IMG/VR virus record: IMGVR_UViG_3300017991_001092
Location: 1 to 20,082 of that record
Origin: a virus
Direction: 5' to 3' (one strand)
Length of the DNA: 20,082 nucleotides
Of the stretch, positions 2,287 to 14,535 are shown piece after piece (positions within the stretch are counted from its first letter, which is position 1; each line of letters starts with the position of its first letter). The translations under genes and the position numbers were made by a program. Under the pieces are notes generated by a model, which was given only the letters and a program-made list of their open reading frames with translations, was not told the DNA's origin and did no database searches.

Positions 2287-3074
2287 GCATCGACCTGATC
2301 CTCCACGCCGGAACCAAGTTCGCGCTGCACCAGTGGCTAGACGCCCGTGATCTGGGCGACAACGTTCAGGACACCGACCCGGAAAGCCCGACCTTCGGCG
2401 AGTATCAATACACCCACCGGGTCGGGACGTTTCTCTGGTGGAACCATCCCAGCGGCGTCGTCACCAAGTCCATCGACAACACCGATCCCGAGAACCCGGT
2501 CGTCACCAACTTCGCCGGGTTCTTCGCGCTTCTCCGCTTGGACGAAATCCCCGAGAACGGTGAGCCGGAACTGGACGAGGAAGGCAACCCGATCCCGCAT
2601 AAAACCAAGCTGCGGAACTGGGTCGAAACCTCCACCGCCGTGTCTGTCCTTGACGGCGTGGCTGGCGTCGGCGGCGAGGGCGTGACGATCCTCGACCCGG
2701 AAGACCTGCGGGCCACCGTGCAGGCTGGCGGTGCGCCGCTGTGGGGCGGTGTGCTGGGTGTCGCGAACAACTGGTCCGATCCGCGCCTGTGGGCCTTCAG
2801 CAACGTGATGACGGGCGATCAGCGCGAGTTCGGCGGCGTGACTTACGAAAGCCTGATCGACTTCAACGTCTGGTCTCCGACGCAGTATCCGCAGGGCTGG
2901 GCCGAGGTTGTCCAGCCTGACCCGCCTGCCACGCCTGAATGGGCCACTGGGGTGGCTTACGCGGTCGGGGACGAGGTGACGTATCGGGGCGCGACTTACC
3001 GCTGCTTGCAGGCGCATACGTCGCTCGCTGGGTGGACCCCGGCGGCTGTCCCGGCCTTGTGGCAGGCTGTCTAG
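2283..3074 (+). CDS. Tail-associated protein with C-terminal CBM5/12-like carbohydrate-binding repeats
   Basis: This 263-residue protein starts at an ATG overlapping the previous stop (ATGA), so it is probably translationally coupled to the large tail gene. The first 175 residues are of no family I recognise. The C-terminus is a good match to the carbohydrate-binding module family 5/12 pattern: residues 218-263 read W..GVAYAVGDEVTYRGATYRCLQAHTS..GWTP..VPALW. A second, shorter copy is visible just before it at residues 182-210 (FGGVTYESL...VWSPTQYPQGW). Such modules bind chitin or related glycans in enzymes and are common at the ends of phage tail proteins. Next to a receptor-binding protein, the likely role is surface-glycan binding or a tail accessory. 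No catalytic domain is seen. Confidence 0.7.
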   Translation: MSIDLILHAGTKFALHQWLDARDLGDNVQDTDPESPTFGEYQYTHRVGTFLWWNHPSGVVTKSIDNTDPENPVVTNFAGFFALLRLDEIPENGEPELDEEGNPIPHKTKLRNWVETSTAVSVLDGVAGVGGEGVTILDPEDLRATVQAGGAPLWGGVLGVANNWSDPRLWAFSNVMTGDQREFGGVTYESLIDFNVWSPTQYPQGWAEVVQPDPPATPEWATGVAYAVGDEVTYRGATYRCLQAHTSLAGWTPAAVPALWQAV

Positions 3075-3080
3075 GAGGGG
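3073..3080 (+). promoter_or_regulatory. Ribosome binding site of the terminase gene
   Basis: AGGAGGGG overlaps the stop codon of the preceding gene and lies 4 bases before GTG 3085. It supports this GTG as the terminase start. Confidence 0.7.
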
Positions 3081-3084
3081 CGCC

Positions 3085-4563
3085 GTGAACGCGGGCTTCA
3101 ACCCACAGCGCGAGCTGGCGAAGCAGATCGGTCAGTTCTACGACGACCCGCTCGGCCACGTCCTGTTTTCGTACCCATGGGGCGAAGGCCCGCTCACTGG
3201 GCGCTCCGGGCCGCAAGCATGGCAGGAGGAGTTCCTGCGTGATGTCGGGGCTGCCGTGCGCTCTCGTCGCTTCGATGGCGTCCACGCCGTGCCTCCGCTG
3301 ATGTACAGCACCGCCTCGGGCCACGGGATCGGCAAGTCGGCCCTCGTCGCGTGGCTGATCCGCTGGATCATGGACACCAGACCGTTCGCCAAGGGCATCG
3401 TCACCGCGAACACCGGCGAGCAGCTGCGCACGAAGACATGGGCCGAGCTGGCCAAGTGGCACAACATGGGCATCACCAGCCACTGGTGGCACCTGAACAG
3501 CGGCGCCGGCTCGATGAACTACTACCATCAGGACTACCGCGAGCAGTGGCGTTGCGACGCCCAGACCTGCCGCGAAGAGAACAGCGAAGCGTTCGCCGGC
3601 CTGCACGCCGCCAACTCGACCCCGTTCTACATCTTCGACGAGGCGTCCGGTGTGCCCGACAAGATCTTCGAGGTGCGCGAGGGCGGCCTGACAGACGGCG
3701 AGCCCATGGTGTTCGACTTCGGGAACCCGACCCGGAACACCGGGCGCTTCTTTCAGAACATGGCAGGCCAGTTCTCGAAGCGCTACAACCGCCGCCACAT
3801 CGACAGCCGCACCGTCGAGCAGACCAACAAGGCCCTGTTCGACCAGTGGGCTCAGGACTACGGCGAGGACAGCGACTTCTTCAAGGTTCGTGTCCGCGGA
3901 ATGTTCCCGGATGCCGGTTCGCTGCAGTTCATCCCGATGTCGCTGATCGAGCACAACGTCGACCGCGACATTTACGTCGGCCCGCACGACCCCCTGATCA
4001 TGGGCGTCGACGTCGCCCGGTTCGGGGACGACGACAGCGTGATCTACATGCGGCACGGCCGCGACTGCAGCACTCCCGGTTTCAAGCGCTACACCAAGGT
4101 CGACACGATGACGCTGGCCAGCGAGATCGCGCGCTTCGCTCGCCAGTACCGGCCCGACGCGGTGATGATCGACGGCGGCGGCGTTGGCGGCGGCGTGATC
4201 GACAGGGCTCGCCAGCTCGGCGTCGAGGTGATCGAGATCAACTTCGGGGCCAAGCCGACGCAGCACGGGTTCGCCAACATGCGCGCCCAGATGTGGTCGA
4301 ACATGCGCGAAGCCCTGAAGGAAGGTGTTCGCCTGCCAAATGATCAGGATCTGATGAGCGATCTGAGCGGCGTCGAGTACGGCTACACCGTGACCAACCT
4401 GCTGAAGCTCGAAGCCAAGGACGACATGAAGAAGCGCGGCCTGCGCAGCCCGGATCTGGCCGACGCTCTGGCCCTGACCTACGCCCTGCCGGTCATGCCG
4501 AACCGCCCCGGGTACGATGGCATGTACACCGAGACCAGAAAGGACTATGATCCGTTCTCATGA
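3085..4563 (+). CDS. Terminase large subunit (ATPase and nuclease)
   Basis: This is the 492-residue packaging motor, which uses ATP to pump DNA into the prohead and cuts the concatemer. The ATPase domain shows a Walker A motif GHGIGKS at residues 79-85 (K84), a Walker B with catalytic glutamate IFDEA at 183-187, and a coupling-motif-like FGNPTRNTG at 212-220. The RNase H-like nuclease domain shows three acidic clusters: GVDVARFGDDD (D309), MIDGGG (D363) and PDLADA (D457, D460). All expected catalytic residues are present and the length is normal for the family. The GTG start is chosen because a strong Shine-Dalgarno sits just upstream and little room remains after the previous stop. The gene overlaps the next by ATGA. 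No small subunit is recognisable next to it. The assignment is firm, but the packaging type (cos, pac or direct repeats) cannot be decided from this. Confidence 0.95.
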   Translation: MNAGFNPQRELAKQIGQFYDDPLGHVLFSYPWGEGPLTGRSGPQAWQEEFLRDVGAAVRSRRFDGVHAVPPLMYSTASGHGIGKSALVAWLIRWIMDTRPFAKGIVTANTGEQLRTKTWAELAKWHNMGITSHWWHLNSGAGSMNYYHQDYREQWRCDAQTCREENSEAFAGLHAANSTPFYIFDEASGVPDKIFEVREGGLTDGEPMVFDFGNPTRNTGRFFQNMAGQFSKRYNRRHIDSRTVEQTNKALFDQWAQDYGEDSDFFKVRVRGMFPDAGSLQFIPMSLIEHNVDRDIYVGPHDPLIMGVDVARFGDDDSVIYMRHGRDCSTPGFKRYTKVDTMTLASEIARFARQYRPDAVMIDGGGVGGGVIDRARQLGVEVIEINFGAKPTQHGFANMRAQMWSNMREALKEGVRLPNDQDLMSDLSGVEYGYTVTNLLKLEAKDDMKKRGLRSPDLADALALTYALPVMPNRPGYDGMYTETRKDYDPFS

Positions 4564-4958
4564 AGCCAGCGATCGTCGCTTTCAATTCGGTCAACAGCCA
4601 CTGGGGCGCGGGCATCCTGCACCCCAGCTACAGGCACGTCTGGTGCATGGTTCTCGACGAGCGCGCCAACGTCTGGGTCAGCCACAACTTCGGCGCAGAC
4701 GGCCATGAAATCGTCGTCGAAAGCGCCGCGGACTTCGACATCGTCGGTTACGCCCGCGACTGCGGCAATGAAGTTTACGTCATCGAGCGGCAACCACCGC
4801 TCGTTTTGTGGCCCGTGATGCTGAACAACTGCGTCGCCCTGACCAAGGCAGTGTGCGGCATCAGGTCTTGGGCCATCACCCCGTACCAGCTGCGCAAGGA
4901 TGTCCGCAGGCTGGCAGTACAGGAGGACGCCGCATGGCGCAGCTTCGCCTTAACCTGA
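4560..4958 (+). CDS. Putative circularly permuted papain/NlpC-like cysteine protein
   Basis: This 132-residue protein overlaps the terminase stop by ATGA. It has no signal peptide or membrane segment. A histidine in a strand-like context, YRHVWCMVLD (H26), precedes a cysteine at the start of a probable helix, NNCVALTKAVCGI (C91), followed by ITPYQLRKDV. The order histidine strand, then cysteine helix, and the NCV..(T/V)K motif are typical of circularly permuted papain-fold (NlpC/P60-like) proteins. Small proteins of this look sit beside terminase or portal genes in several phages. If active, it would be a cysteine hydrolase or amidase, but the substrate is unknown and could be peptidoglycan, a host protein or a capsid protein. 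The fold call rests on short motifs only and could be wrong. Confidence 0.5.
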   Translation: MKPAIVAFNSVNSHWGAGILHPSYRHVWCMVLDERANVWVSHNFGADGHEIVVESAADFDIVGYARDCGNEVYVIERQPPLVLWPVMLNNCVALTKAVCGIRSWAITPYQLRKDVRRLAVQEDAAWRSFALT

Positions 4959-5449
4959 CCCTGCCCGGTGGCGGCCCGACCATGCTGCGCTACCAGACCG
5001 GGCCGGTCGACAAGTTCGGGCGCGGCCTCGGCCAGCTCCGCCCGACATGGACGCAGGACGGCAGCGACACGCCGCCTGATCGCATGGCCAACTCCCCGAT
5101 CCGCGGCATCCTCAACGCCGCCGTGACCGGGGACAAGTCTGGCGTCCCGTTCCCCATGAACCCGGGAAACCGGCCCAAGCCCGCAGGTGGGAGCATGGAG
5201 AACGCACCTGTCGGCGGCATCATCAAGGCCGGCATGACCGGGGACCGCAGCGCCGCGCCCGCCCCGTTCAACCCCGACAAGATCGGCGCCAAGGCCCGCC
5301 CCAAGCGGGCGCCCATGCAGGGCAACCCGGCATCGGCGCACCTGTGGGCGATGCTGACCGCCGCCGCAGGCGCCAACAAGACTGGCGCCAGCGAGCAACA
5401 GAAGGCCGCGGCCTACCGGGCCAACAAGAAGCAGCTGCTAGGGAGCTGA
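4934..5449 (+). CDS. Small repeat-containing phage protein of unknown function
   Basis: I do not recognise this 171-residue protein. The frame is open further upstream, but ATG 4934 is chosen because AGGAGG lies at 4921-4926. The start overlaps the end of the previous gene by 25 bases in another frame. The N-terminus reads MAQLRLNLTLPGGGPT, and its NLTLPG motif recurs in the next gene. The middle holds two copies of a roughly 27-residue unit, at residues 52-78 (NSPIRGILNAAVTGDKSG) and 89-115 (NAPVGGIIKAGMTGDRSA), 37 residues apart. A weaker third copy is at about 138-151 (AMLTAAAGANKTGA). The protein is rich in Gly, Pro, Ala, Lys and Arg, lacks membrane segments, and ends in a basic tail (YRANKKQLLGS). 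Its place between terminase and portal suggests a minor head or virion component, but that is inference. Confidence 0.7.
   Translation: MAQLRLNLTLPGGGPTMLRYQTGPVDKFGRGLGQLRPTWTQDGSDTPPDRMANSPIRGILNAAVTGDKSGVPFPMNPGNRPKPAGGSMENAPVGGIIKAGMTGDRSAAPAPFNPDKIGAKARPKRAPMQGNPASAHLWAMLTAAAGANKTGASEQQKAAAYRANKKQLLGS
5087..5386 (+). repeat. Tandem protein-level repeat units inside the small gene
   Basis: The units are encoded at about 5087-5167 and 5198-5278, with a degenerate third at about 5345-5386. The shared pattern is N.P(I/V).GI(L/I).A..TGD(K/R)S with FPMNPG or PFNPD after it. The similarity is clear in protein and much weaker in DNA, which indicates old duplication. Confidence 0.6.
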
Positions 5450-5451
5450 CC

Positions 5452-5805
5452 ATGATCAACCTGACCCTTCCCGGCTTCGGCCGCACCAAGGTGGTGCAGG
5501 CGCCGGCCCCGCCGCCGCCGCCCCCGAACCCGCCCGCGCCTCCCGTGCAGGCGAACGCAGCTGCTGACGCGGCTCGCACCGTCGCACCCGAGGCCGCCTC
5601 GATCACCGCCGGGCGCCGCAGCGTCGGCATGGCCGCTGGCAGCTACGGCGGCGGCATCGTGCGCAACGTCGGCGGAGCCCGCGGCACGACCAGCGTCACC
5701 ACCGCTCAGCGCGGCCTGCGTCCTTACGCCCCCCCAAAACAGGCCCCCCGCGACACCACTGGAGGCCTCGCGCAGACCGCCCTCAAAGCCCTGACAGGGA
5801 TGTGA
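5452..5805 (+). CDS. Small proline/glycine/alanine-rich phage protein of unknown function
   Basis: This protein of 117 residues starts at ATG 5452, two bases after the previous stop, with GGGAG at 5441-5445 as the likely ribosome site. The frame extends upstream, but no better start is seen. The N-terminus MINLTLPGFGRTK shares NLTLPGxGxT with the preceding gene's N-terminus. A proline-rich linker follows at residues 17-32 (APAPPPPPPNPPAPPV), then an Ala-rich stretch and a Gly-rich, basic segment (GSYGGGIVRNVGGARGTT). There is no lipobox, signal peptide or membrane segment, so a spanin is not supported. It lies directly before the portal gene and is probably co-expressed with it. The function is unknown; it could be a minor virion protein or an unstructured assembly factor. 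Confidence 0.65.
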   Translation: MINLTLPGFGRTKVVQAPAPPPPPPNPPAPPVQANAAADAARTVAPEAASITAGRRSVGMAAGSYGGGIVRNVGGARGTTSVTTAQRGLRPYAPPKQAPRDTTGGLAQTALKALTGM

Positions 5806-5808
5806 ACC

Positions 5809-7557
5809 ATGATCGCTGTCACGCCTGAAAACATGCTATCCGGCCCCCTGACGGGCAAGCGTCAGGCGTGCTTCAAGCGGTTTCGCCGGCTGGAGACCGA
5901 TCGCTCCAGCTGGCGCGGCCAGTGGATCGAGATCTCGGACTACCTGCTGCCGCGGCGCGGGCGCTACCTCGTCGAGAGCCAGAGCACCAAGGGCCGCAAG
6001 CGGAACACCAAGATCATCGACAACACCGCCGGCATCGCCCTGCGCACGCTGCAGGCAGGCCTGATGTCGGGCATGACCAGCCCGGCGCGGCCGTGGTTCA
6101 GGCTGATCGTCGACGACGACCTGATGGACATGCCCGGGGTCAAGGATTACCTCGGCATCGCGGAGCAGGTCGTGCGCCGCGTGCTGGCGGCGTCGAACTG
6201 CTACAACAGCCTCGCCACCTGCTACACCGAGCTTGGCGCCTTCGGCACGCACGCCCTGTTGCGGCGCCGCCATCCCGAGGACGTCATCCACTACCGCCCG
6301 TTCACGGCGGGCGAGTACGTCATCGCCGAGGACGAGTACGGCCGCGTCAACACGCTCGGCCGCGAGTTCACGATGACGGTTTCCCAGATCGTCGAACAGT
6401 TCGTGATCAACAAGGTCACCGGCGAGGAAGACTGGGACAAGGTCAGCAAGGCCGTTAAGTCCTTGTGGGACAAGAAGAATTACGACGAGAACATCCAGAT
6501 CATCCACATGATCCAGCCGCGCCGCAAGGAGGACCGCGACCTGACGCGGCGCGACGGGCGCAACCGCGCGTTCATGGACGTCTACTTCGAGGTCGGCGCC
6601 GACAAGGACATCTTCCTGCAGGAGAGCGGGTTCGACCGCTTCCCGGCCTACGTCCCGCGCTGGGACGTGCTGGGCGGCGACGTCTACGGCACCTGCCCGG
6701 GCATGGAGTACCTCGGCGACATCAAGCAGCTGCAGCACGAACAGAAGCGCAAAGCGCAGGCGATCGACAAGATGGTCGACCCGCCCATGGTCGCCACCAC
6801 CGCTCTCAAGGGCAAACCGACGACCGTGCTGCCGGGCGGCACGACCTACGTCGACCCGGTCAATGGCAACAACGGGTTCCAGCCTGCCTACCTCGTCCAG
6901 CCCCGCGTGCAGGAGCTGATGATGGATATCCAAGAGGTGCAGGAGCGCATCCAGCGCGGCTTCTACGCTGACCTGTTCGCCATGATGATCAACTCCGATC
7001 GGCGCCAGATGACGGCGACCGAGGTGGCCGAGCGGCACGAAGAGAAGCTGGTGCTGCTGGGCCCGGTCCTGCAGCGCCTGAACACCGAGCTGCTGGACCC
7101 GCTGATCGAGGACGCGTTCCTGTTCTGCTTCGAGGCAGGCCTGCTGCCCGAGACGCCCGAGGCGCTGATGGATGTCGACATCGACGTCAAGTACGTCTCG
7201 CTGCTGGCGCAGGCTCAGGAGGCCGTCGCAGCCACCGGGATCGAGCGCACCTTCGCGTTCGCCGGCAACCTCGCGGCCGTCATGCCCGACATCCTCGACA
7301 ACCTCAACGGCGACGAGGCGCTGCGCCAGTACAGCGAGATCCTCGGCAACGGCCCGGGCATCACCCGCGACAGCGAGGAGGTGCAGGCGCTCCGGGCGCA
7401 GCGCGCCGAGGCCGCGGCACAGGAGCAGCAGATGCAGCAGGGGCTCGCAGCGGCTCAGGGAGCCAAGGTTCTGTCGGAAGCGGATACCCAGAGTCCAAAC
7501 GCCCTGACGGCCCTCCTGCAGGCCACTGGGGGCGGCGGACGGCAGTCGGTGATCTGA
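5809..7557 (+). CDS. Portal protein (T7 gp8-type head-tail connector)
   Basis: This 582-residue protein matches podovirus head-tail connectors, which form the ring at one capsid vertex through which DNA enters and leaves, and to which terminase and tail adaptor dock. Family-like stretches are the N-terminal W..QW.EISDYLLPRRGRY (about residues 35-51), DNTAGIALRTLQAGLMSGMTSP with RPWF (about 72-98), the CPGMEYLGDIKQLQHEQK helix (about 299-316), and the wing/clip segment with RRQMTATEVAERHEEK. The length is near that of T7-like connectors. The C-terminal 50-60 residues are rich in Gln and Ala (QEQQMQQGLAAAQG), the usual flexible end. ATG 5809 follows a weak purine stretch (CAGGGA). The next gene begins one base after the stop. 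The call is secure from sequence pattern, gene order and length. Confidence 0.92.
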   Translation: MIAVTPENMLSGPLTGKRQACFKRFRRLETDRSSWRGQWIEISDYLLPRRGRYLVESQSTKGRKRNTKIIDNTAGIALRTLQAGLMSGMTSPARPWFRLIVDDDLMDMPGVKDYLGIAEQVVRRVLAASNCYNSLATCYTELGAFGTHALLRRRHPEDVIHYRPFTAGEYVIAEDEYGRVNTLGREFTMTVSQIVEQFVINKVTGEEDWDKVSKAVKSLWDKKNYDENIQIIHMIQPRRKEDRDLTRRDGRNRAFMDVYFEVGADKDIFLQESGFDRFPAYVPRWDVLGGDVYGTCPGMEYLGDIKQLQHEQKRKAQAIDKMVDPPMVATTALKGKPTTVLPGGTTYVDPVNGNNGFQPAYLVQPRVQELMMDIQEVQERIQRGFYADLFAMMINSDRRQMTATEVAERHEEKLVLLGPVLQRLNTELLDPLIEDAFLFCFEAGLLPETPEALMDVDIDVKYVSLLAQAQEAVAATGIERTFAFAGNLAAVMPDILDNLNGDEALRQYSEILGNGPGITRDSEEVQALRAQRAEAAAQEQQMQQGLAAAQGAKVLSEADTQSPNALTALLQATGGGGRQSVI

Positions 7558-7558
7558 C

Positions 7559-7858
7559 ATGGCGCGCAAGGTCGTCTACGACAGCTCCGATCCCGAACAG
7601 GTCAGGGCCGCGGAGAAACAGGAGCAGGATGTCCAGAACGACATCCGCTACATCCTGAAGGAGCCGCGCGGGCGGCGCTGGTTGTACGAGTTCATCTTCA
7701 ACACCTGCCATGTCGAGCTGCCCAGCTTTGTGCCCGGAGATGAGCAGACGACAGCCTTCAACGAGGGCGGCAGGGCAGTAGGCCAGCGTCTACTCGGCGA
7801 GATCCGCGACGCGTGGCCGGCCATGTACATCAAGATGCTGGAGGAAAATCAGCTATGA
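7559..7858 (+). CDS. Bbp19-like phage structural protein
   Basis: This 99-residue protein begins one base after the portal stop (TGACATG). No clear Shine-Dalgarno is seen, so translational coupling to the portal gene is likely. The pattern DIRYILKEPRGRRWLYEFI (about residues 28-46), then a short Cys/His-containing turn and TAFNEGGRAVGQRLLGEI (about 65-82), fits the small family named after Bbp19 of Bordetella phage BPP-1. Members lie between portal and scaffold genes. The exact role is not established as far as I know. The position and the partner genes (GP7-type capsid protein, Bbp16-like cement) make a virion or assembly function likely. It overlaps the scaffold gene by ATGA. Confidence 0.75.
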   Translation: MARKVVYDSSDPEQVRAAEKQEQDVQNDIRYILKEPRGRRWLYEFIFNTCHVELPSFVPGDEQTTAFNEGGRAVGQRLLGEIRDAWPAMYIKMLEENQL

Positions 7859-8529
7859 CGGAAGCGACTCAAGCCCCAGAGGGCGACATCCTCGACGAAG
7901 GCGCCGACGCCCCGGCGCAACCTGCTGACGAGCAGAAGCCTGTTGACACGGCAGCAGCTGATACGGCACAACAGCAAGACGCCGGTGACCTGCTGTCGGA
8001 TGACGAGGCTGCCGGGAATGGAGGGGTGCCAGACCAGTACACCTTCGACCCCCCTGAAGGCTTCGACGCAAACGAAGAGTTTCAGGGCCGACTGGAAGAG
8101 TTCGGCACGACTGCCAAGGAGATGGGCCTGTCTCAGGACCAGTTCCAGAAGCTGATCGAGTACGACATCCAGCGGGGACAGCTCATGGAACAGGCGGCTG
8201 TCGAGGGTTGGCACGGACGCGTGAACGGCTGGAAAGAGGCCGCCCGCGCTGACAAGGAGATCGGCGGGGAGCAGTTCAAGGCTTCCATCGCGACGGCTCA
8301 GAAGGTGGTCAACAGTTACGGAGATCCCGAGCTGAAAGCCCTCCTGAAGAGCCCGAGCACCGAGAACCCTGAAGGTCTGGCCCTCGGCAACCATCCTGCC
8401 ATGCTTCGGCTTCTGAACCGCATCGGCCGGGCGCTCGATGAGCCCCCCGTCATCGAAGGCGACAGCAAGGTCGACGATGAGGGGACGCTCAAGAAGCTCT
8501 ACCCGACGATGTTCGACAAATCGGCGTAA
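7855..8529 (+). CDS. Capsid assembly scaffolding protein
   Basis: This protein of 224 residues starts at ATG 7855, which overlaps the previous stop and follows GGAGGA at 7840-7845. The frame is open a little upstream, but this start fits best. The first 60 residues are acidic and low in order (many D, E, A, Q). Next comes a Y-x-F-D-P-P-E-G-F-like element (about 63-71), a helical middle, and a C-terminal stretch ALGNHPAMLRLLNRIGRAL typical of podovirus scaffolding proteins. The final segment TLKKLYPTMFDKSA would contact the coat protein in this family. It lies directly before the major capsid gene, as expected for a scaffold that guides shell formation and is lost on maturation. No protease domain is seen. 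Confidence 0.85.
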   Translation: MTEATQAPEGDILDEGADAPAQPADEQKPVDTAAADTAQQQDAGDLLSDDEAAGNGGVPDQYTFDPPEGFDANEEFQGRLEEFGTTAKEMGLSQDQFQKLIEYDIQRGQLMEQAAVEGWHGRVNGWKEAARADKEIGGEQFKASIATAQKVVNSYGDPELKALLKSPSTENPEGLALGNHPAMLRLLNRIGRALDEPPVIEGDSKVDDEGTLKKLYPTMFDKSA

Positions 8530-8536
8530 AGGAGGG
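8529..8536 (+). promoter_or_regulatory. Strong ribosome binding site of the capsid gene
   Basis: AAGGAGGG overlaps the scaffold stop codon and ends 4 bases before ATG 8541. It is one of the two strongest ribosome sites in the window, fitting the most abundant virion protein. Confidence 0.75.
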
Positions 8537-8540
8537 CTAG

Positions 8541-9539
8541 ATGGCCACGCTCAGCGTCAAGAACCCCACCCTCGCGGACCTCGCGAAGGTCATGGACCCG
8601 GACGGCTCGATTGCCGACGTGGTCGAAATCCTGAACCAGACCAACGAGATCCTGATGGACATGACGTGGATCGAGGGCAACCTCACCACCGGCCATCGCT
8701 CGACGATCCGTTCCGGTCTCCCCACCCCGACTTGGCGGAAGCTCTACGGCGGCGTCCAGCCGACCAAGAGCCGCGCCGTGCAGGTCACCGACAACTGCGG
8801 CATGCTCGAAGACTATGCCGAAGTCGACAAGGCGCTGGTCGATATGGCCGGCGACCCTGCGGCGTTCCGCCTGCAGGAAGACCGCCCGCACATCGAGGGC
8901 ATGAACCAAGAGATGGCCGCGACGCTGTTCTACGGCGACGAAGCCACGGCGCCGGAAGAGTTCACCGGCCTCGCTCCGCGGTTCAACTCGCTCTCGGCCG
9001 AGAATGGTGACAACATCATTTCCGGCGGCGGCAGCGGCTCCGACAACGCTTCGATCTGGCTGATCTGCTGGTCGCCGAACACCGTGCACGGCATCGTGCC
9101 GAAGGGTTCGACCGCCGGTATCCAGCAGCGCGATCTGGGCGAAGTCACCATCGAGAACGCCGACGGCTCGAACGGCCGCATGCAGGCGTACCGCACGCAC
9201 TATCGCTGGGATGCCGGGCTCTGCGTCCGCGACTGGCGCTATGTCGTGCGCATCGCCAACATCGACCGCTCGCTCCTGACGAACGACATCTCGACGGGCG
9301 CGGACCTGAACGATCTCATGCACAAGGCTCTCACCGAGATCCCGAACCCCTCGTTCGGTCGGTGCGTCTGGTACATGGACAAGCAGGTTCTCGGCTTCCT
9401 GCGCCGGCAGACCGCCAACGCGGTGGCCAACTCGACGCTGACGACCGAGATGGTCGGCGGCACCATGCAAACTTCGTGGGGCGGGTACCCGATCCGCCGC
9501 GTTGATGCCCTGCGCACCAACGAAGCCACCGTTTCGTAA
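8541..9539 (+). CDS. Major capsid protein (epsilon15 GP7 / BPP-1 type)
   Basis: This 332-residue protein forms the icosahedral shell. The N-terminal half carries a recognisable GP7-type signature: TLADLAKVMDPDG, then VEILNQTNEILMDMTWIEGN (about residues 29-48), TGHRSTIRSGLPTPTWRKL (about 50-68), GVQPTKS and CGMLEDYAEVDKAL, followed by FRLQEDRPHIEGMNQEM (about 109-125) and TLFYGD. This places the capsid with the HK97-fold coat proteins of podoviruses epsilon15 and BPP-1, not with T7 gp10. A central beta-rich domain (GITDs such as GLCVRDWRYVVRIANID) and the C-terminal GYPIRRVDAL follow. The length is normal for the family. A strong Shine-Dalgarno precedes the gene and another follows it for the cement gene, so high translation is expected. 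Confidence 0.93.
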   Translation: MATLSVKNPTLADLAKVMDPDGSIADVVEILNQTNEILMDMTWIEGNLTTGHRSTIRSGLPTPTWRKLYGGVQPTKSRAVQVTDNCGMLEDYAEVDKALVDMAGDPAAFRLQEDRPHIEGMNQEMAATLFYGDEATAPEEFTGLAPRFNSLSAENGDNIISGGGSGSDNASIWLICWSPNTVHGIVPKGSTAGIQQRDLGEVTIENADGSNGRMQAYRTHYRWDAGLCVRDWRYVVRIANIDRSLLTNDISTGADLNDLMHKALTEIPNPSFGRCVWYMDKQVLGFLRRQTANAVANSTLTTEMVGGTMQTSWGGYPIRRVDALRTNEATVS

Positions 9540-9545
9540 GGAGGA
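9538..9545 (+). promoter_or_regulatory. Strong ribosome binding site of the cement gene
   Basis: AAGGAGGA overlaps the capsid stop codon and lies 6 bases before ATG 9552. The spacing favours 9552 over the ATG at 9547, which opens only a two-codon frame. Confidence 0.7.
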
Positions 9546-9551
9546 CATGAC

Positions 9552-10025
9552 ATGATCATGGACGAACTTCTGGAGTTCTGCGACGCGACGTCGGTGGCGG
9601 CTGGTGCCGGCACCGCGCTCGTCGGGGACGTAATCGATCTTGGGGCCACGCCTCAGGATCTGGGCGACGGCGAGCCGATGTACCTCGTCATCACCGTCGA
9701 CACGTCGATCATCACGGGCGGCGCGGCCGGGACCATCAAGTTCCAGCTGGCGTCGGATGCTCAGGCGGCGATCGCCGTTGACGGCTCCGCGACCGTGCAC
9801 ATCGACACCGGCACCTTCGTGACCGATGACGCTGCGCTCAACGATCTCGACGCCGGCGACGTGGCCTTCGTGGGCGCGCTGCCCACCGGGGCCGGCCGGC
9901 CCTACGAGCGCTACCTCGGCATCCTGTCGACGATCGCCACGACCACGGTCACGGCGGGCGCGATCAACGCGTTCCTGACCAAAGACCCGTACAAGTGGAA
10001 GGCCTACGCCGACGCCACCAGCTAA
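9552..10025 (+). CDS. Bbp16-like capsid cement (decoration) protein
   Basis: This 157-residue protein follows the major capsid gene after 12 bases. It is rich in beta-forming residues, with many short Thr/Val/Gly stretches (MYLVITVDTSI, GTIKFQLASDAQAAI, GSATVHIDTGTF) and a C-terminus RYLGILSTIATTTVTAGAI. This fits the Bbp16-type cement protein of BPP-1-like phages, which binds between capsomers and stabilises the shell. An in-frame ATG at 9558 is an alternative start, but Shine-Dalgarno spacing supports 9552. A strong hairpin terminator follows eight bases after the stop, so capsid and cement may close a highly expressed unit. The call rests on position plus sequence pattern. Confidence 0.8.
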   Translation: MIMDELLEFCDATSVAAGAGTALVGDVIDLGATPQDLGDGEPMYLVITVDTSIITGGAAGTIKFQLASDAQAAIAVDGSATVHIDTGTFVTDDAALNDLDAGDVAFVGALPTGAGRPYERYLGILSTIATTTVTAGAINAFLTKDPYKWKAYADATS

Positions 10026-10032
10026 GACCTGA

Positions 10033-10055
10033 GGGGGGCCTGACGGCCCCCCTTT
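10033..10055 (+). terminator. Rho-independent-type terminator after the cement gene
   Basis: A perfect 8-bp stem (GGGGGGCC at 10033-10040 with GGCCCCCC at 10045-10052), a TGAC loop, and TTT at 10053-10055 lie 7 bases after the cement stop. The stem is very GC-rich but the T tract is short, so it may be only partly efficient and act as an attenuator between head and tail genes. Confidence 0.7.
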
Positions 10056-10079
10056 CCCCAGCCAACGAAGGAAAGCCCC

Positions 10080-10391
10080 ATGTCCATTACCGTTGTCTTC
10101 GACAAGTCCGGTTTCTACCATCCCGCCTACGGCCGCATGGGCCTCGGCAAGAACCAAGGCATCCCCTACGTCCTGCCCGACGCCTTCAAGAACAAGGGCC
10201 GCCTGCCGGCCAGCGCCCGGATCATCAAGGGCGACGAAGTCGATGCCGCTCTGGAAGAGGCCGAGGTGACCAAGCCGATCAAGCCGAAGGTCGTCGACGA
10301 GACCCAGTACGAGCAGGCCGTCGCTCCGCCCCCGATGCCCGAGCCGGCTTCCGAGATGTCGGCGCGGCGCCGCAAGCTCGACGAGGACTGA
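10080..10391 (+). CDS. Small phage protein of unknown function between cement and tail adaptor
   Basis: This protein of 103 residues starts at ATG 10080 with GAAGGAAAG at 10067-10075 as ribosome site. It lies just after the terminator, so it is expressed by read-through or from an unseen promoter. The N-terminal half (ITVVFDKSGFYHPAYGRMGLGKNQGIPYVLPDAF) is probably a small folded domain. The second half is charged and proline-rich (KPIKPKV, APPPMPEPASEMSARRRKLDED) and probably disordered. I do not recognise the family. The location suggests a minor head or head-tail joining protein, but this is inference. The stop overlaps the start region of the next gene (TGATGAATG). Confidence 0.65.
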   Translation: MSITVVFDKSGFYHPAYGRMGLGKNQGIPYVLPDAFKNKGRLPASARIIKGDEVDAALEEAEVTKPIKPKVVDETQYEQAVAPPPMPEPASEMSARRRKLDED

Positions 10392-10394
10392 TGA

Positions 10395-10991
10395 ATGGCC
10401 AGCTCTGTCCAGATCGCGAAGCTGGCGCTCCAGCACGTCGGCGATCGCTACGACATCACCTCGCTGGACGAGGCGACGCCTGAGGCAGAGCAGGTCAACC
10501 TGCTGTTCGACGACGTCCGCGACATGGTGCTCAGGCAGCACCCGTGGAAGTTCGCCGTGAAGCACGACAGCCCGGCACAGCTCACGGGCACCGTGCCGGG
10601 TCTGTGGACCTACATGTTCGTCTACCCGAGCGACTGCCTGAAGATGATCGAAATCGTCAACCCGCTGGGCAAGGATGCCGACCCTCTGGAGTTCGACATC
10701 ATGCTCAACTCGGACGACGTGAAGGTTATCGTCTGCGACGTCGAAGAGCCCGAGTTCCGGTACATCTCGCGCGTGACTGACAGCGCGCGGTTCGACCCCA
10801 GCTTCGTCATGGCGTTCAGCATGCGGCTGGCCCAGTTCCTCGCCGTGCCCCTGACCGGAGACCGCGGTCTTGCCGAGGGGCTCAGGAACGAGGCCGACCG
10901 GATGATGTCCATGGCGCGGGCCGACGACGCCAACGAGGGCGTGGAAGACGATCACAGGCGGGACGCGTCGTGGATTGAAGCGAGGGCCTGA
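10395..10991 (+). CDS. Tail tubular protein A-like adaptor (T7 gp11 type)
   Basis: This 198-residue protein fits the adaptor that forms a ring under the portal and links it to the nozzle. The family-like pattern starts at the N-terminus: IAKLALQHVGDRYDITSLDE, then EAEQVNLLFDDVRDMVLRQHPWKFAVK (about residues 30-57), with WTYMFVYPSDCLKMIEI (about 73-89), and a helical C-terminus (FSMRLAQFLAVPLTGD, GLRNEADRMMSMAR). The length is close to T7 gp11. Two starts are possible; ATG 10391 is out of frame with the product, so ATG 10395 is used. Its stop overlaps the nozzle start as TGATG, which points to coupled translation of the two interacting tail proteins. Confidence 0.87.
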   Translation: MASSVQIAKLALQHVGDRYDITSLDEATPEAEQVNLLFDDVRDMVLRQHPWKFAVKHDSPAQLTGTVPGLWTYMFVYPSDCLKMIEIVNPLGKDADPLEFDIMLNSDDVKVIVCDVEEPEFRYISRVTDSARFDPSFVMAFSMRLAQFLAVPLTGDRGLAEGLRNEADRMMSMARADDANEGVEDDHRRDASWIEARA

Positions 10992-13900
10992 TGACCAAGT
11001 TCATCCAGCCGAGCCTTGTCGGCGGTGAGATATCTCCCCCTATCGGCGCGCGGATCGACCTGTCGAAGCGCGCCGTTTCCGTTGAGCTGGCGCAGAACTT
11101 CTTCGCCCGGGTATCCGGGTCTCTGGAGAGCCGGCCCGGCCAACGCTTCGTCGCCCGGGCCAAGGGCGACACCGTGCGCCTGATCCCGTTCGAGTTCAAC
11201 ACCGAGCAGACGTTCATCATCGAGCTGGGCAACCAGTACGCACGTTTCCACACCGACGGCGCCCAGATCCTCGACAGCTCGTCGACGGCCACCATCACCG
11301 CGGCGACGCAGGCGTCTCCCGGCGTGATCACGGCGACGGCGCACGGGTTCTCCGACGACGACGAGATCTTCATCACCGGCGTCGTCGGGATGGAAGAGCT
11401 GAACGGGCGCAACCTGATCGTCGACAACGCGACCGCGAACACGTTCACCCTGAAGACGCTGGACGGCGTCGCGGTCAACACGACCGCCTATACCGCCTAC
11501 GCCAGCGGCGGCACCGCGACCAAGGTCTACGAGATCGCCACGCCGTGGCCCGACAGCATCCTGTTCGACTTGCGCTACGACCAGTCCGGGGATGTCATCT
11601 CGATCGTCCACCCCGACTACCCGCCGCAGGAGATCGTGCGCCTCGACAACGACAACTGGAGCATCGCCGCGATCGATTTCGTGCCCGACCACCCGGCTCC
11701 GACGTCGCTGCTGGCCGAGGCCAAGAACAGCCCGGACCCGGGCTACCTGTCGATCAGCAGCATCACCCGGGCCAACCCCGGCGTCGTCACGACCAGCACC
11801 GCGCACGGGATGGTGGACGGCGACATGGTCAGGATCTGGGCCGGCACCGGCATGGACGAAATCAAGAACTTCGTCTACGAGGTCGACGTCCTGTCGACGA
11901 CGACGTTCTCCCTGATCCACCGCGACACCGGCGCCAGCATCGACACCAGCGGCTTCTCGGCCTACACCAGCGGCGCCCGGGCCGAGGTCGGCAGCTACGA
12001 GCAGCCGCGCAAGTACGGCGTGACGGCGATCAGCGCAGACACCGGCGAGGAGAGCTTCCTCGCTCTGGTCACGGCCACGGCCTACCGGGCAGATATCACC
12101 GGCATCACGAAGGCCAACCCGTGCGTCATCACGACCAGCCGCGGCCACGGCTTCCGCACTGGCGATGAGCTTGAGATCCTTTCCGTCGGCGGCATGACAG
12201 AACTGAACGGCCGCAGGTTCCGGGCCGAGTACGTCGACAACACGACGTTCAACCTGCTGGACCTCTATGGCAATTACGTCGACACGACCGACGCGACGAC
12301 CTACACCAGCGGCGGCGCGGCCTACCGGACCTACTTCGAGATGGTCAACAGCAAGGCCGACGACTGGGAGAACTACATCTACTGGAACGCCGTCGAGGGC
12401 ACCGCGCGCTACAACGTCTACGCGTCGGAGACCGGCGGCCAGTTGCAGTACATCGGCACGACGACCGGGCCGCAGTTCCGCGACAACTACATCTCCCCGG
12501 ACCCGAACAAGACGCCGCCCGACCCGGCCAACCCGTTCTTCGACCTGACCGGGACCGGCGACAAGTACCCGGGCGCCGTCGGCTTCTTCGAGCAGCGCCG
12601 GCTCTTCGGCAACACGAACGAAGCCCCGAACAAGATGCTGATGAGCCAGACCGGGCGGCTCTACAACTTCTCCCGGTCGAGCCCGCTGCGCGACGACGAC
12701 GCGATCATCGCCTCGGTGATCGCGCGGAGGATCAACGCGATCCAGCACTTCGTGCACCTGAACGACCTGCTGGTCATGACCAGCGGCGGCGAGTTCCGGG
12801 TGTTCGGGGATCAGGGCGTGATGACCCCGTCGACCATCAACATCAAGTCGCAGAGCTACTATGGGTCGACGTCCTTGCCGCCGATCGTGTCCGGTGACGT
12901 CGCCCTGTTCGTATCGCCCGGCCAGTACATTCGCGACATGAAGTACCAGTTCTCGGACGACAAGTTCGTCGGCCGCGACATCACGGTGCTGGCGCGGCAC
13001 CTGTTCGACAACCGCGAGCTGGTCGACTGGGCGTACTCGTCTGCCCCGTACTCGACGATCTGGGCCCTGCGCGACGACGGGCTTGGCCTGATCCTGACCT
13101 ACCAACCAGAGCAAGACGTCTACGCGTGGTGCCGCGCGGTCACCCGCGGCGATTACAAGTCCGTCGCGGTCGTGCGCGAGGGCAGCATCGACGAGGTCTA
13201 CTTCGCCGTGCGCCGCCCTCTGCCCGACGGCAGCCGGGCGACGTTCATCGAGAAGCTGGACGCGCGCCAGTTCAACGACCTGCAGGACGCGTTCTGCGTC
13301 GACTGCGGCCTGACCTATGACCAGCCGATGACGGTCACCAACGTGTCCCAAGCCTTGCCGATGGCGATCACGGTAGACGGGGACAGCGGCCTGTCGCCCG
13401 GTGACATCATCGACATCTCGGACATCTTCGAGGTGAACGAGGACAACTGCACATGCGGCGAAACCCTCTCCGCGGACTACAACGGCACCGGCTTCATCGT
13501 CGGCACCGTCAGCCCGGGAGGAACCAATTTCACGGTGCTGACGTCTTCCGGTGACCCGGTCGATAGTTCCGCGTTCGCCGCCTATTCCTCCGGGGGGCGG
13601 GTGCGGAAGGCGGTCACCACGGTCTCAGGGCTTTGGCACCTTGAGGGGGCTACCGTGGTGGCCGCCGCCAACGGCTACGCCGAAACGGACCTGACGGTCA
13701 CGAACGGTTCGGTTACGCTGTCGGCCCCCGCCAGCCGCATCCACATCGGCCTGTCCTACGCTTGCAGGATGTCGACCTTGCCGCTGACGGTCTACTCTGA
13801 CGGCAGGACGAACAAGGGTCAGGCCAAGAACATCAACCGCCTGACCATGCAGGTCGAGCGCACGATGGGCATGTGGTATGGCCCGAACTTCGACGAGGTC

Positions 13901-14083
13901 CGCGAGGCCAAGTTCGGTTTGCCAGACGTCTGGGGCCAGCCGCTGACCATGATCACCGACGACATCGACCTGACCATGAAACCCGGCTGGGACAAGAACA
14001 AGCGCGTCGTAATCGAGCAGCGCACGCCCCAGCCGATCACGATCTTGGCCATGATCCCCGACATCGTGACAGGCGGCAACTGA
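10991..14083 (+). CDS. Tail nozzle protein (tail tubular B-like) with four FCCH-like repeats
   Basis: This 1030-residue protein starts at ATG 10991, overlapping the adaptor stop. The N-terminus (FIQPSLVGGEISPPIGARIDLSKRAVS; SLESRPGQRFV; RLIPFEFNTEQTFIIELG) is typical of podovirus nozzle proteins, which form the distal tail tube. Domains inserted in this frame are beta-rich repeats of the kind databases label 'ubiquitin-activating E1 FCCH', at about residues 100-179, 255-334, 368-446 and 780-873; the name does not imply ubiquitin activity. A fibronectin-III-like segment follows at about 447-500 (YIYWNAVEGTARYNVYASE...YIGTT). The core nozzle resumes with FFEQRRLFGNTNEAPNKM (about 532-549) and the C-terminal NRLTMQVERT. 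It is longer than T7 gp12 (about 790 residues) because of the repeats. Cysteines cluster at 769, 772, 820 and 822. Confidence 0.87.
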   Translation: MTKFIQPSLVGGEISPPIGARIDLSKRAVSVELAQNFFARVSGSLESRPGQRFVARAKGDTVRLIPFEFNTEQTFIIELGNQYARFHTDGAQILDSSSTATITAATQASPGVITATAHGFSDDDEIFITGVVGMEELNGRNLIVDNATANTFTLKTLDGVAVNTTAYTAYASGGTATKVYEIATPWPDSILFDLRYDQSGDVISIVHPDYPPQEIVRLDNDNWSIAAIDFVPDHPAPTSLLAEAKNSPDPGYLSISSITRANPGVVTTSTAHGMVDGDMVRIWAGTGMDEIKNFVYEVDVLSTTTFSLIHRDTGASIDTSGFSAYTSGARAEVGSYEQPRKYGVTAISADTGEESFLALVTATAYRADITGITKANPCVITTSRGHGFRTGDELEILSVGGMTELNGRRFRAEYVDNTTFNLLDLYGNYVDTTDATTYTSGGAAYRTYFEMVNSKADDWENYIYWNAVEGTARYNVYASETGGQLQYIGTTTGPQFRDNYISPDPNKTPPDPANPFFDLTGTGDKYPGAVGFFEQRRLFGNTNEAPNKMLMSQTGRLYNFSRSSPLRDDDAIIASVIARRINAIQHFVHLNDLLVMTSGGEFRVFGDQGVMTPSTINIKSQSYYGSTSLPPIVSGDVALFVSPGQYIRDMKYQFSDDKFVGRDITVLARHLFDNRELVDWAYSSAPYSTIWALRDDGLGLILTYQPEQDVYAWCRAVTRGDYKSVAVVREGSIDEVYFAVRRPLPDGSRATFIEKLDARQFNDLQDAFCVDCGLTYDQPMTVTNVSQALPMAITVDGDSGLSPGDIIDISDIFEVNEDNCTCGETLSADYNGTGFIVGTVSPGGTNFTVLTSSGDPVDSSAFAAYSSGGRVRKAVTTVSGLWHLEGATVVAAANGYAETDLTVTNGSVTLSAPASRIHIGLSYACRMSTLPLTVYSDGRTNKGQAKNINRLTMQVERTMGMWYGPNFDEVREAKFGLPDVWGQPLTMITDDIDLTMKPGWDKNKRVVIEQRTPQPITILAMIPDIVTGGN
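11288..13609 (+). repeat. Four FCCH-like domain repeats encoded in the nozzle gene
   Basis: The units are at about 11288-11527, 11753-11992, 12092-12328 and 13328-13609. The shared pattern is IT.A.PGVITT...HG...GD.(I/V).I....GM.ELNG..F.V......TF.L......(V/I)(D/N)T...AY.SGG. The first three are regular. The fourth is further away and carries an inserted cysteine-bearing loop. Confidence 0.75.
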
Positions 14084-14535
14084 TGCTGAAGGATCTGGTC
14101 TTCGCCCGGGACTACGGTCACATGATGCAGCTGGCGAGGCAGATGCACGCCGAGGGTGTCCACCGCGACTTCCCGTTGAACGAGGAACGCACCGCCTACA
14201 TCATGCAGTACCTGATCGGAGAGGACGACGTCTACACCAAGGGCTGGTTCGACAAGCACGACCAGCTGGTCGGGTTCATGGCCGGCGAGATCATCGAAGA
14301 CCTGTGGGTCGACATGAAGATCGCGACCGACCACGCGTTCTACATCAGGCCCAGCGCGCGGGGCGGACGCGGCGCCGTGGCCATGATTCGCGGCTTCGAG
14401 GAGTGGGCGTGGGAACGGGGGGCTGACGTCGTCAGGCCCGTAGTGTATGCTGGCGTGAACAACGACCGCGCCGGTCAGCTGCTGTTGAGAATGGGCTACG
14501 AAGACGCGGGCGGCATTTACAAGAAGGTGCGCTGA
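14083..14535 (+). CDS. GNAT-type acetyltransferase-like protein
   Basis: This protein of 150 residues starts at ATG 14083, overlapping the nozzle stop as TGATG. The frame runs upstream inside the nozzle gene, but this ATG gives a natural length. The C-terminal half has the GNAT motif A region: HAFYIRPSARGGRGAVAMIRGFEEWA (about residues 86-111), where RGGRGA stands for the (Q/R)xxGx(G/A) acetyl-CoA loop. Then comes VYAGVNNDRAGQLLLRMGYE (about 122-141) and a final GGIYKKV strand. GNAT-like genes occur within virion gene blocks of several podoviruses. The substrate is unknown; it could modify a virion protein, a host protein or a small molecule. The spacing on both sides shows it belongs to the late operon. 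Confidence 0.8.
   Translation: MLKDLVFARDYGHMMQLARQMHAEGVHRDFPLNEERTAYIMQYLIGEDDVYTKGWFDKHDQLVGFMAGEIIEDLWVDMKIATDHAFYIRPSARGGRGAVAMIRGFEEWAWERGADVVRPVVYAGVNNDRAGQLLLRMGYEDAGGIYKKVR

Follow-up and report, generated by a model that had tools for sequence, protein, structure and literature searches.

In the podovirus DNA analysed here, two small neighbouring genes that directly precede the portal gene encode proteins of 171 and 117 amino acids that carry the same type of peptide at both ends, and these shared ends are probably due to duplication of one gene. The pair is a variant of a kind of podovirus protein that has been described before and is still little understood. On balance, we favour as the best overall explanation that the two are paralogues whose ends serve for docking and which are packaged and ejected.

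Results

The DNA and its portal relatives

The window, meaning the whole stretch analysed, is a 20,082-base IMG/VR virus record. Pfam and PHROG matches were found for terminase, a Head-tail_con portal (PF12236), a GP7 major capsid protein (PF20911), an adaptor and a nozzle, and internal virion proteins are encoded as well (a phrog_418 match and an 810-aa protein with VanY/endolysin-type matches). By its gene content, the window is assigned as a fragment of an epsilon15/BPP-1-like podovirus. The portal, which matches a solved portal that we take to be that of Carin-1, served as the reference gene for synteny:

5809..7557, plus strand: portal (head-tail connector; PF12236, E 5.7e-158; phrog_332; solved portal 8ck0, E 8e-141)

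Relatives of this portal were found in IMG/VR in 171 confirmed stretches, of which the best 80 of 171 were kept, and in 181 of 50,697 phage records, every one with less than 60% identity. A first look at the genes before the portal covered 78 of the 80 loci. Among 98 unique portal loci, 76 had more than 700 bases upstream. Removal of one, L003, left 75 for the survey with a position-specific scoring matrix (PSSM); L003 was retained in the upstream-domain counts (44/66), the 44 locus rows and the unfused-row counts given below. L003 is a near-twin of the window, with 99.86% identity over 9,823 bases (window 2638-12460). Its alignment to the window breaks at about 845-1399, inside a tail-protein gene (97-2286), and a second time at 2582-2638, a pattern that would fit an exchange of these stretches between strains. 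Two further features were observed downstream of the portal. The nozzle (10991-14083, 1030 aa) contains three E1_FCCH-type repeats and exceeds the 712-column PHROG 376 profile in length, yet matches this profile end to end. A GNAT-type acetyltransferase gene (14080-14535; phrog_1249, E 1.7e-19) lies between the nozzle and internal virion protein genes, and acetyltransferase-like genes were also seen by eye near small tagged genes in BPP-1 (Bbp24) and zth2-2.

Two adjacent proteins share both ends

The original prediction had described two neighbouring ORFs, beginning MAQLRLNLTLPGGGPT... and MINLTLPGFGRT..., with a common N-terminal NLTLPGxGxT motif. Both ORFs and the positions of both motifs proved correct, and each start codon is preceded by a strong ribosome site:

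4921..4926, plus strand: Shine-Dalgarno AGGAGG of the 171-aa gene (read from the sequence)
4934..5449, plus strand: 171-aa protein, family-type N- and C-terminal ends on a divergent body (PSSM, shuffles, profile)
4952..4981, plus strand: N-terminal motif NLTLPGGGPT of the 171-aa protein (PSSM 19.0)
5420..5446, plus strand: C-terminal end ANKKQLLGS of the 171-aa protein (PSSM 9.6)
5440..5445, plus strand: Shine-Dalgarno AGGGAG of the 117-aa gene (read from the sequence)
5452..5805, plus strand: 117-aa protein, canonical portal-upstream small basic proline-rich protein (family alignment)
5458..5487, plus strand: N-terminal motif NLTLPGFGRT of the 117-aa protein (PSSM 24.4)
5776..5802, plus strand: C-terminal end TALKALTGM of the 117-aa protein (PSSM 20.8)

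The N-terminal alignment score of the two proteins, 40, ranked first among the 136 gene pairs of the window (runner-up 23) and was reached in 3 of 20,000 shuffles. The shortness of the motif would allow a chance similarity of two short sequences. However, when 42 motif strings taken solely from relatives, with the window excluded, were used to train a PSSM, no start codon among 15,608 in the background reached the score of the 171-aa N-terminus (maximum 12.2). Since this model had never seen the window, chance similarity was rejected as extremely improbable.

The original prediction had also pointed to likeness at the DNA level. AACCTGACCCTNCCCGG indeed occurs only twice within the record, both times at the motif sites, and four of the six NLTLPG codons agree, but about 2.9 agreements are expected from the codon usage of the window, so the likeness adds no evidence. 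A DNA-level signal of duplication was therefore dropped. Relatives encode the motif with synonymous codon variants. The statement that the rest of each protein differs held for the bodies but not for the C-termini, which are both of the family type: none of 5,096 background ORF ends reached the score of the 171-aa C-terminus (maximum 9.0).

A family of small basic proteins encoded before the portal

Most portal relatives have, just before the portal, an ORF for a small protein whose N-terminus combines a hydrophobic strand with [P/A]GxGG. After this N-terminal tag, family members show a run of prolines and a basic segment, in many cases VRNxGG, and finally LTG or LLG at the C-terminus. The 117-aa protein aligned along its length with 13 relatives (alignment A1, 14 members), with G8, G10, N72, G74, G75, L114 and G116 invariant and the middle motif conserved:

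5659..5685, plus strand: middle motif VRNVGGARG of the 117-aa protein (alignment A1)

On this alignment, the 117-aa protein is classed as a canonical family member. Its structural model, of low confidence, was disordered with one C-terminal helix (pTM 0.18), and the pI exceeded 9.6 in 59 of 59 family members tested (10.8 and 11.7 for the window pair). Members of the family are small, basic and largely disordered, and their genes directly precede that of the portal.

The N-terminal tag emerged as a conserved family feature adjoining the portal, in keeping with the original prediction. Its motif was detected by PSSM in this position in 56 of the 75 loci, with one ORF in 46 and two or more in 10; outside the portal-upstream interval, a single match was found across all loci and both strands. 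The matrix used in this survey was trained partly on the surveyed loci and never on the window. The remaining 19 loci had no N-terminal motif, and several of them keep the C-terminal end together with an MC- or MG- start. The N-terminal tag is thus not indispensable.

A second branch of the family ends in KTLLGN. Profile comparison linked A1 to this TLLG branch with E 7e-19, a value inflated by poly-proline, and the TLLG branch in turn to epsilon15 gp3, Carin-1 gp47, Bbp22 and others over the C-terminal half (E 9e-9). Epsilon15 gp3 belongs to PHROG 831, whose function is unannotated and whose neighbours include Carin-1 gp47, Vibrio phage 1.021.A gp04, BPP-1 Bbp22, small ORFs of zth2-2 and Jess A gp054. 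Like the window family, these are small proteins encoded between terminase and portal, and zth2-2 has two such genes, as does the window. They share an (S)T-x-LTG-x-x-G segment that is followed by T-L-L-G at the C-terminus, whereas their N-termini begin with MC-, MS- or MG- and lack the LTLPGxG strand. The best hit of the PHROG 831 HMM among the 14 A1 members had E 0.013, and the link runs only through the profiles A1-A5-A4.

Other searches returned little. With both proteins, a close relative and the upstream gene as queries, tblastn against the 50,697 phage records gave no matches; Pfam and PHROGs were uninformative on the small proteins, neither of the window pair matching a PHROG at E 0.1; and a search of a genome collection returned two MAG contigs only, from which no host was inferred. 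No solved structure was found for the family. Structure matches to epsilon15 gp3 were mostly ribosomal proteins at E 0.02 or worse and were taken as chance. A literature search by motif strings returned unrelated papers only, and the literature found on portal-upstream small proteins and on epsilon15/BPP-1 virions yielded nothing on the tagged family.

At several loci, an ORF of 30-32 aa or slightly longer, of the type M[SA]QQRT...KPSLSGE, follows the tagged gene and has a similar LSG/LTG end (L019:5902-5994, L034:5902-5994, L012:5691-5780 and L028). It may be a third family product.

Probable tandem duplication and replacement of one body

The A1 profile aligned with the 171-aa protein over residues 1-15 only (E 6e-5). 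Both the proline run and the VRNxGG motif, which the 117-aa protein has, are absent from its body, and it was therefore filed as a diverged paralogue and not as a canonical member. The body contains instead an internal repeat, whose two copies align with a local score of 85 that none of 2000 shuffles reached:

5084..5182, plus strand: internal repeat 1 of the 171-aa protein (aa about 51-83; local score against repeat 2)
5195..5308, plus strand: internal repeat 2 of the 171-aa protein (aa about 88-125; local score against repeat 1)

A third copy was considered and found unsupported, the scores being reached by 65 and 1071 of 2000 shuffles.

The 117-aa gene stops at 5805, directly before the portal start at 5809, and the 171-aa gene is the next upstream. 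The start of the 171-aa gene overlaps the gene before it by 25 nt. The same 25-nt overlap was found in 10 of 17 unfused rows, the window and L003 counted, and in the relatives the downstream partner is the gene of the canonical tagged protein; the 171-aa gene therefore occupies the ancestral slot. Position and equal overlap thus make tandem duplication followed by body replacement the best origin, as one of the two explanations offered in the original prediction had it, and both ends of each protein being of the family type agrees with this. It is the simplest history of the pair and is well supported, with the 117-aa gene keeping the canonical body. The original prediction took absence of the motif from the homologues of either gene as a sign of chance similarity; the homologues of the 117-aa protein retain it, and the only other copy found of the 171-aa protein is in the near-identical record.

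Pairing also recurs. Independent loci carry adjacent tagged ORFs, 10 of 75 by PSSM with the window included; at two of these (L131 and L125) an extra match inside a terminase-like ORF is false, and two small tagged ORFs remain. Further pairs were seen by eye in L044 and L178, outside the count of 10. In L055 and L056, three to four tandem small genes precede the portal and share only an RTLLGN/TLLGG C-terminus, which is a stronger case of repeated duplication.

Duplication could have occurred without shared function, the 171-aa gene being a decayed or hybrid copy whose ends are kept by descent, so that only the 117-aa protein works. Such decay would fit the loss of the body motifs and the absence of a homologue of the 171-aa body outside the near-identical record. 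However, the frame is open behind a strong Shine-Dalgarno site, the internal repeat is well kept, both ends are retained despite the changed middle, and two tagged products are encoded at other loci too. We consider decay rather unlikely and favour two paralogues that would both function.

The upstream gene and its fusion to the tagged tail

The gene that overlaps the 171-aa gene encodes a domain that also occurs in fusion with the tagged tail:

4560..4958, plus strand: upstream gene, 132 aa, predicted permuted NlpC/P60-like cysteine hydrolase domain (alignment, model)
L052, 277-864: fused form (example)
L066, 4908-5507: fused form (example)

A regular expression recognised this domain in at least 44 of 66 loci, a lower bound because the expression can miss diverged or truncated copies. 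In alignment A3 (34 sequences), H14, H26 and C91 are invariant, with His preceding Cys, and H26 and C91 are candidate catalytic residues. The AF2 model (pLDDT 87.8) gave as top rows in VIA-align TseH, YiiX and a B. cereus cysteine peptidase (Z 7.6, 6.4 and 6.0; next 5.0), over 102-112 residues, where Z below 8 may mean only a common arrangement. We take these three to be permuted NlpC/P60 enzymes, which the upstream gene product may resemble in fold and does resemble in the invariant His before Cys. Foldseek alone against the PDB found no significant match to the model (E >0.1), and Pfam gave no match for the gene. Since Z stays below 8 and Foldseek found nothing significant, the assignment as a permuted NlpC/P60-like cysteine hydrolase remains a prediction. 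In a viral library, four proteins matched at E <0.001, none of them with an assigned function, and a search of the literature on NlpC/YiiX in podoviruses found nothing relevant.

In 27 of the 44 rows, which are not independent as the loci are related, domain and tagged tail form one continuous reading frame, a fusion that the original prediction did not mention. Between the domain and the motif, each of these 27 fused ORFs retains a start codon, which in 23 is accompanied by a Shine-Dalgarno-like site. Conservation of this start codon suggests a possible second short product, and fusion to a predicted cell-wall-hydrolase-like domain suggests that the tagged proteins carry cargo.

The same region bears on two other accounts of the N-terminal peptide. 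In the window, the TGA stop of the upstream gene (4956-4958) sits within the Leu-Thr codons of the 171-aa motif (c TGA cc). This embedded stop, together with the recurrence of the 25-nt overlap, would fit an N-terminal sequence constrained by translation and gene overlap rather than by docking. However, the 117-aa gene keeps the same peptide with no stop embedded in it, fused ORFs keep it where there is no overlap, and the motif codons vary synonymously; we regard this constraint as highly unlikely. The peptide could instead be a head-targeting or scaffold-binding signal for assembly only, perhaps cleaved by a prohead protease. The motif is N-terminal in the window pair, and the neighbouring gene at 7855-8526 matches phrog_458 (annotated protease, E 7.8e-37). 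Against such a signal, the motif is internal in fused relatives, behind a domain of 120-130 aa, and no cleavage signature was noticed; we judge it quite unlikely. Docking ends remain our preferred reading of the peptides.

Discussion

We propose that the two genes are paralogues, arranged in tandem, of a small gene of virion type whose place in epsilon15/BPP-1-like podoviruses is immediately before the portal. The product would be a short basic chain, disordered over most of its length, in which both termini are conserved: the N-terminal peptide consists of a hydrophobic strand and PGxG, and the C-terminal one reads (A)LK-LTG or (K)TLLG. These ends may be docking peptides that tie the proteins to the assembly of portal, ejection core and tail channel, while the middle would be exchangeable, be it a proline/arginine linker, a repeat body or a fused hydrolase domain. 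The proteins would be packaged with the core and ejected at infection.

The original prediction had offered a common docking site, for example on portal, terminase or capsid interior. Docking on the portal or ejection core is plausible by analogy with T7. In a cryo-EM report on T7 (PMC11784390), residues 2-15 of gp6.7, an N-terminal loop, lie on the portal barrel, and residues 84-98 of gp7.3, a C-terminal loop, at the nozzle/adaptor junction; the N-terminus of gp7.3 is mostly positive, the positive rest of this protein is near the DNA, much of each chain is unresolved, and both proteins are ejected. A 2026 preprint (PMC13320782) already proposes small ORFs upstream of the Peru-2 portal as analogues. 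We extend the comparison to the epsilon15/BPP-1-like group as an analogy of function and not as a claim of homology. Like the window pair, gp6.7 and gp7.3 are encoded by two small genes just upstream of the portal, and both viruses encode internal virion (ejection) proteins; the window pair appears to resemble the T7 proteins in position, charge and disorder. Unlike the tagged family, gp6.7 and gp7.3 have neither PGxG nor LLG at their ends and are not joined to a hydrolase domain, and hhalign of profile A4 detected no sequence homology with gp6.7 (E 0.19) or gp7.3 (E 0.3).

A bolder extension, which we offer tentatively, is that the two ends form a modular cargo tag, by which a body between or ahead of them would be carried on the portal or ejection core into the host envelope. 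Relatives would carry the predicted hydrolase, and the internal start would give cargo-loaded and cargo-free forms. The window would have split this arrangement into three genes, with an untagged enzyme and two tagged proteins, one of them with a new repeat body.

Most of the small proteins encoded ahead of podovirus portals lack an annotation, and in the literature found on them a role is structurally resolved only for T7. The conserved ends provide a means to recognise such proteins in a large uncultured group and a prediction of which peptide touches the portal. The tagged family may help to anchor and release proteins injected at infection. If the cargo-tag reading is true, a short pair of peptides would serve as a transferable label by which proteins could be loaded into podovirus heads and then ejected.
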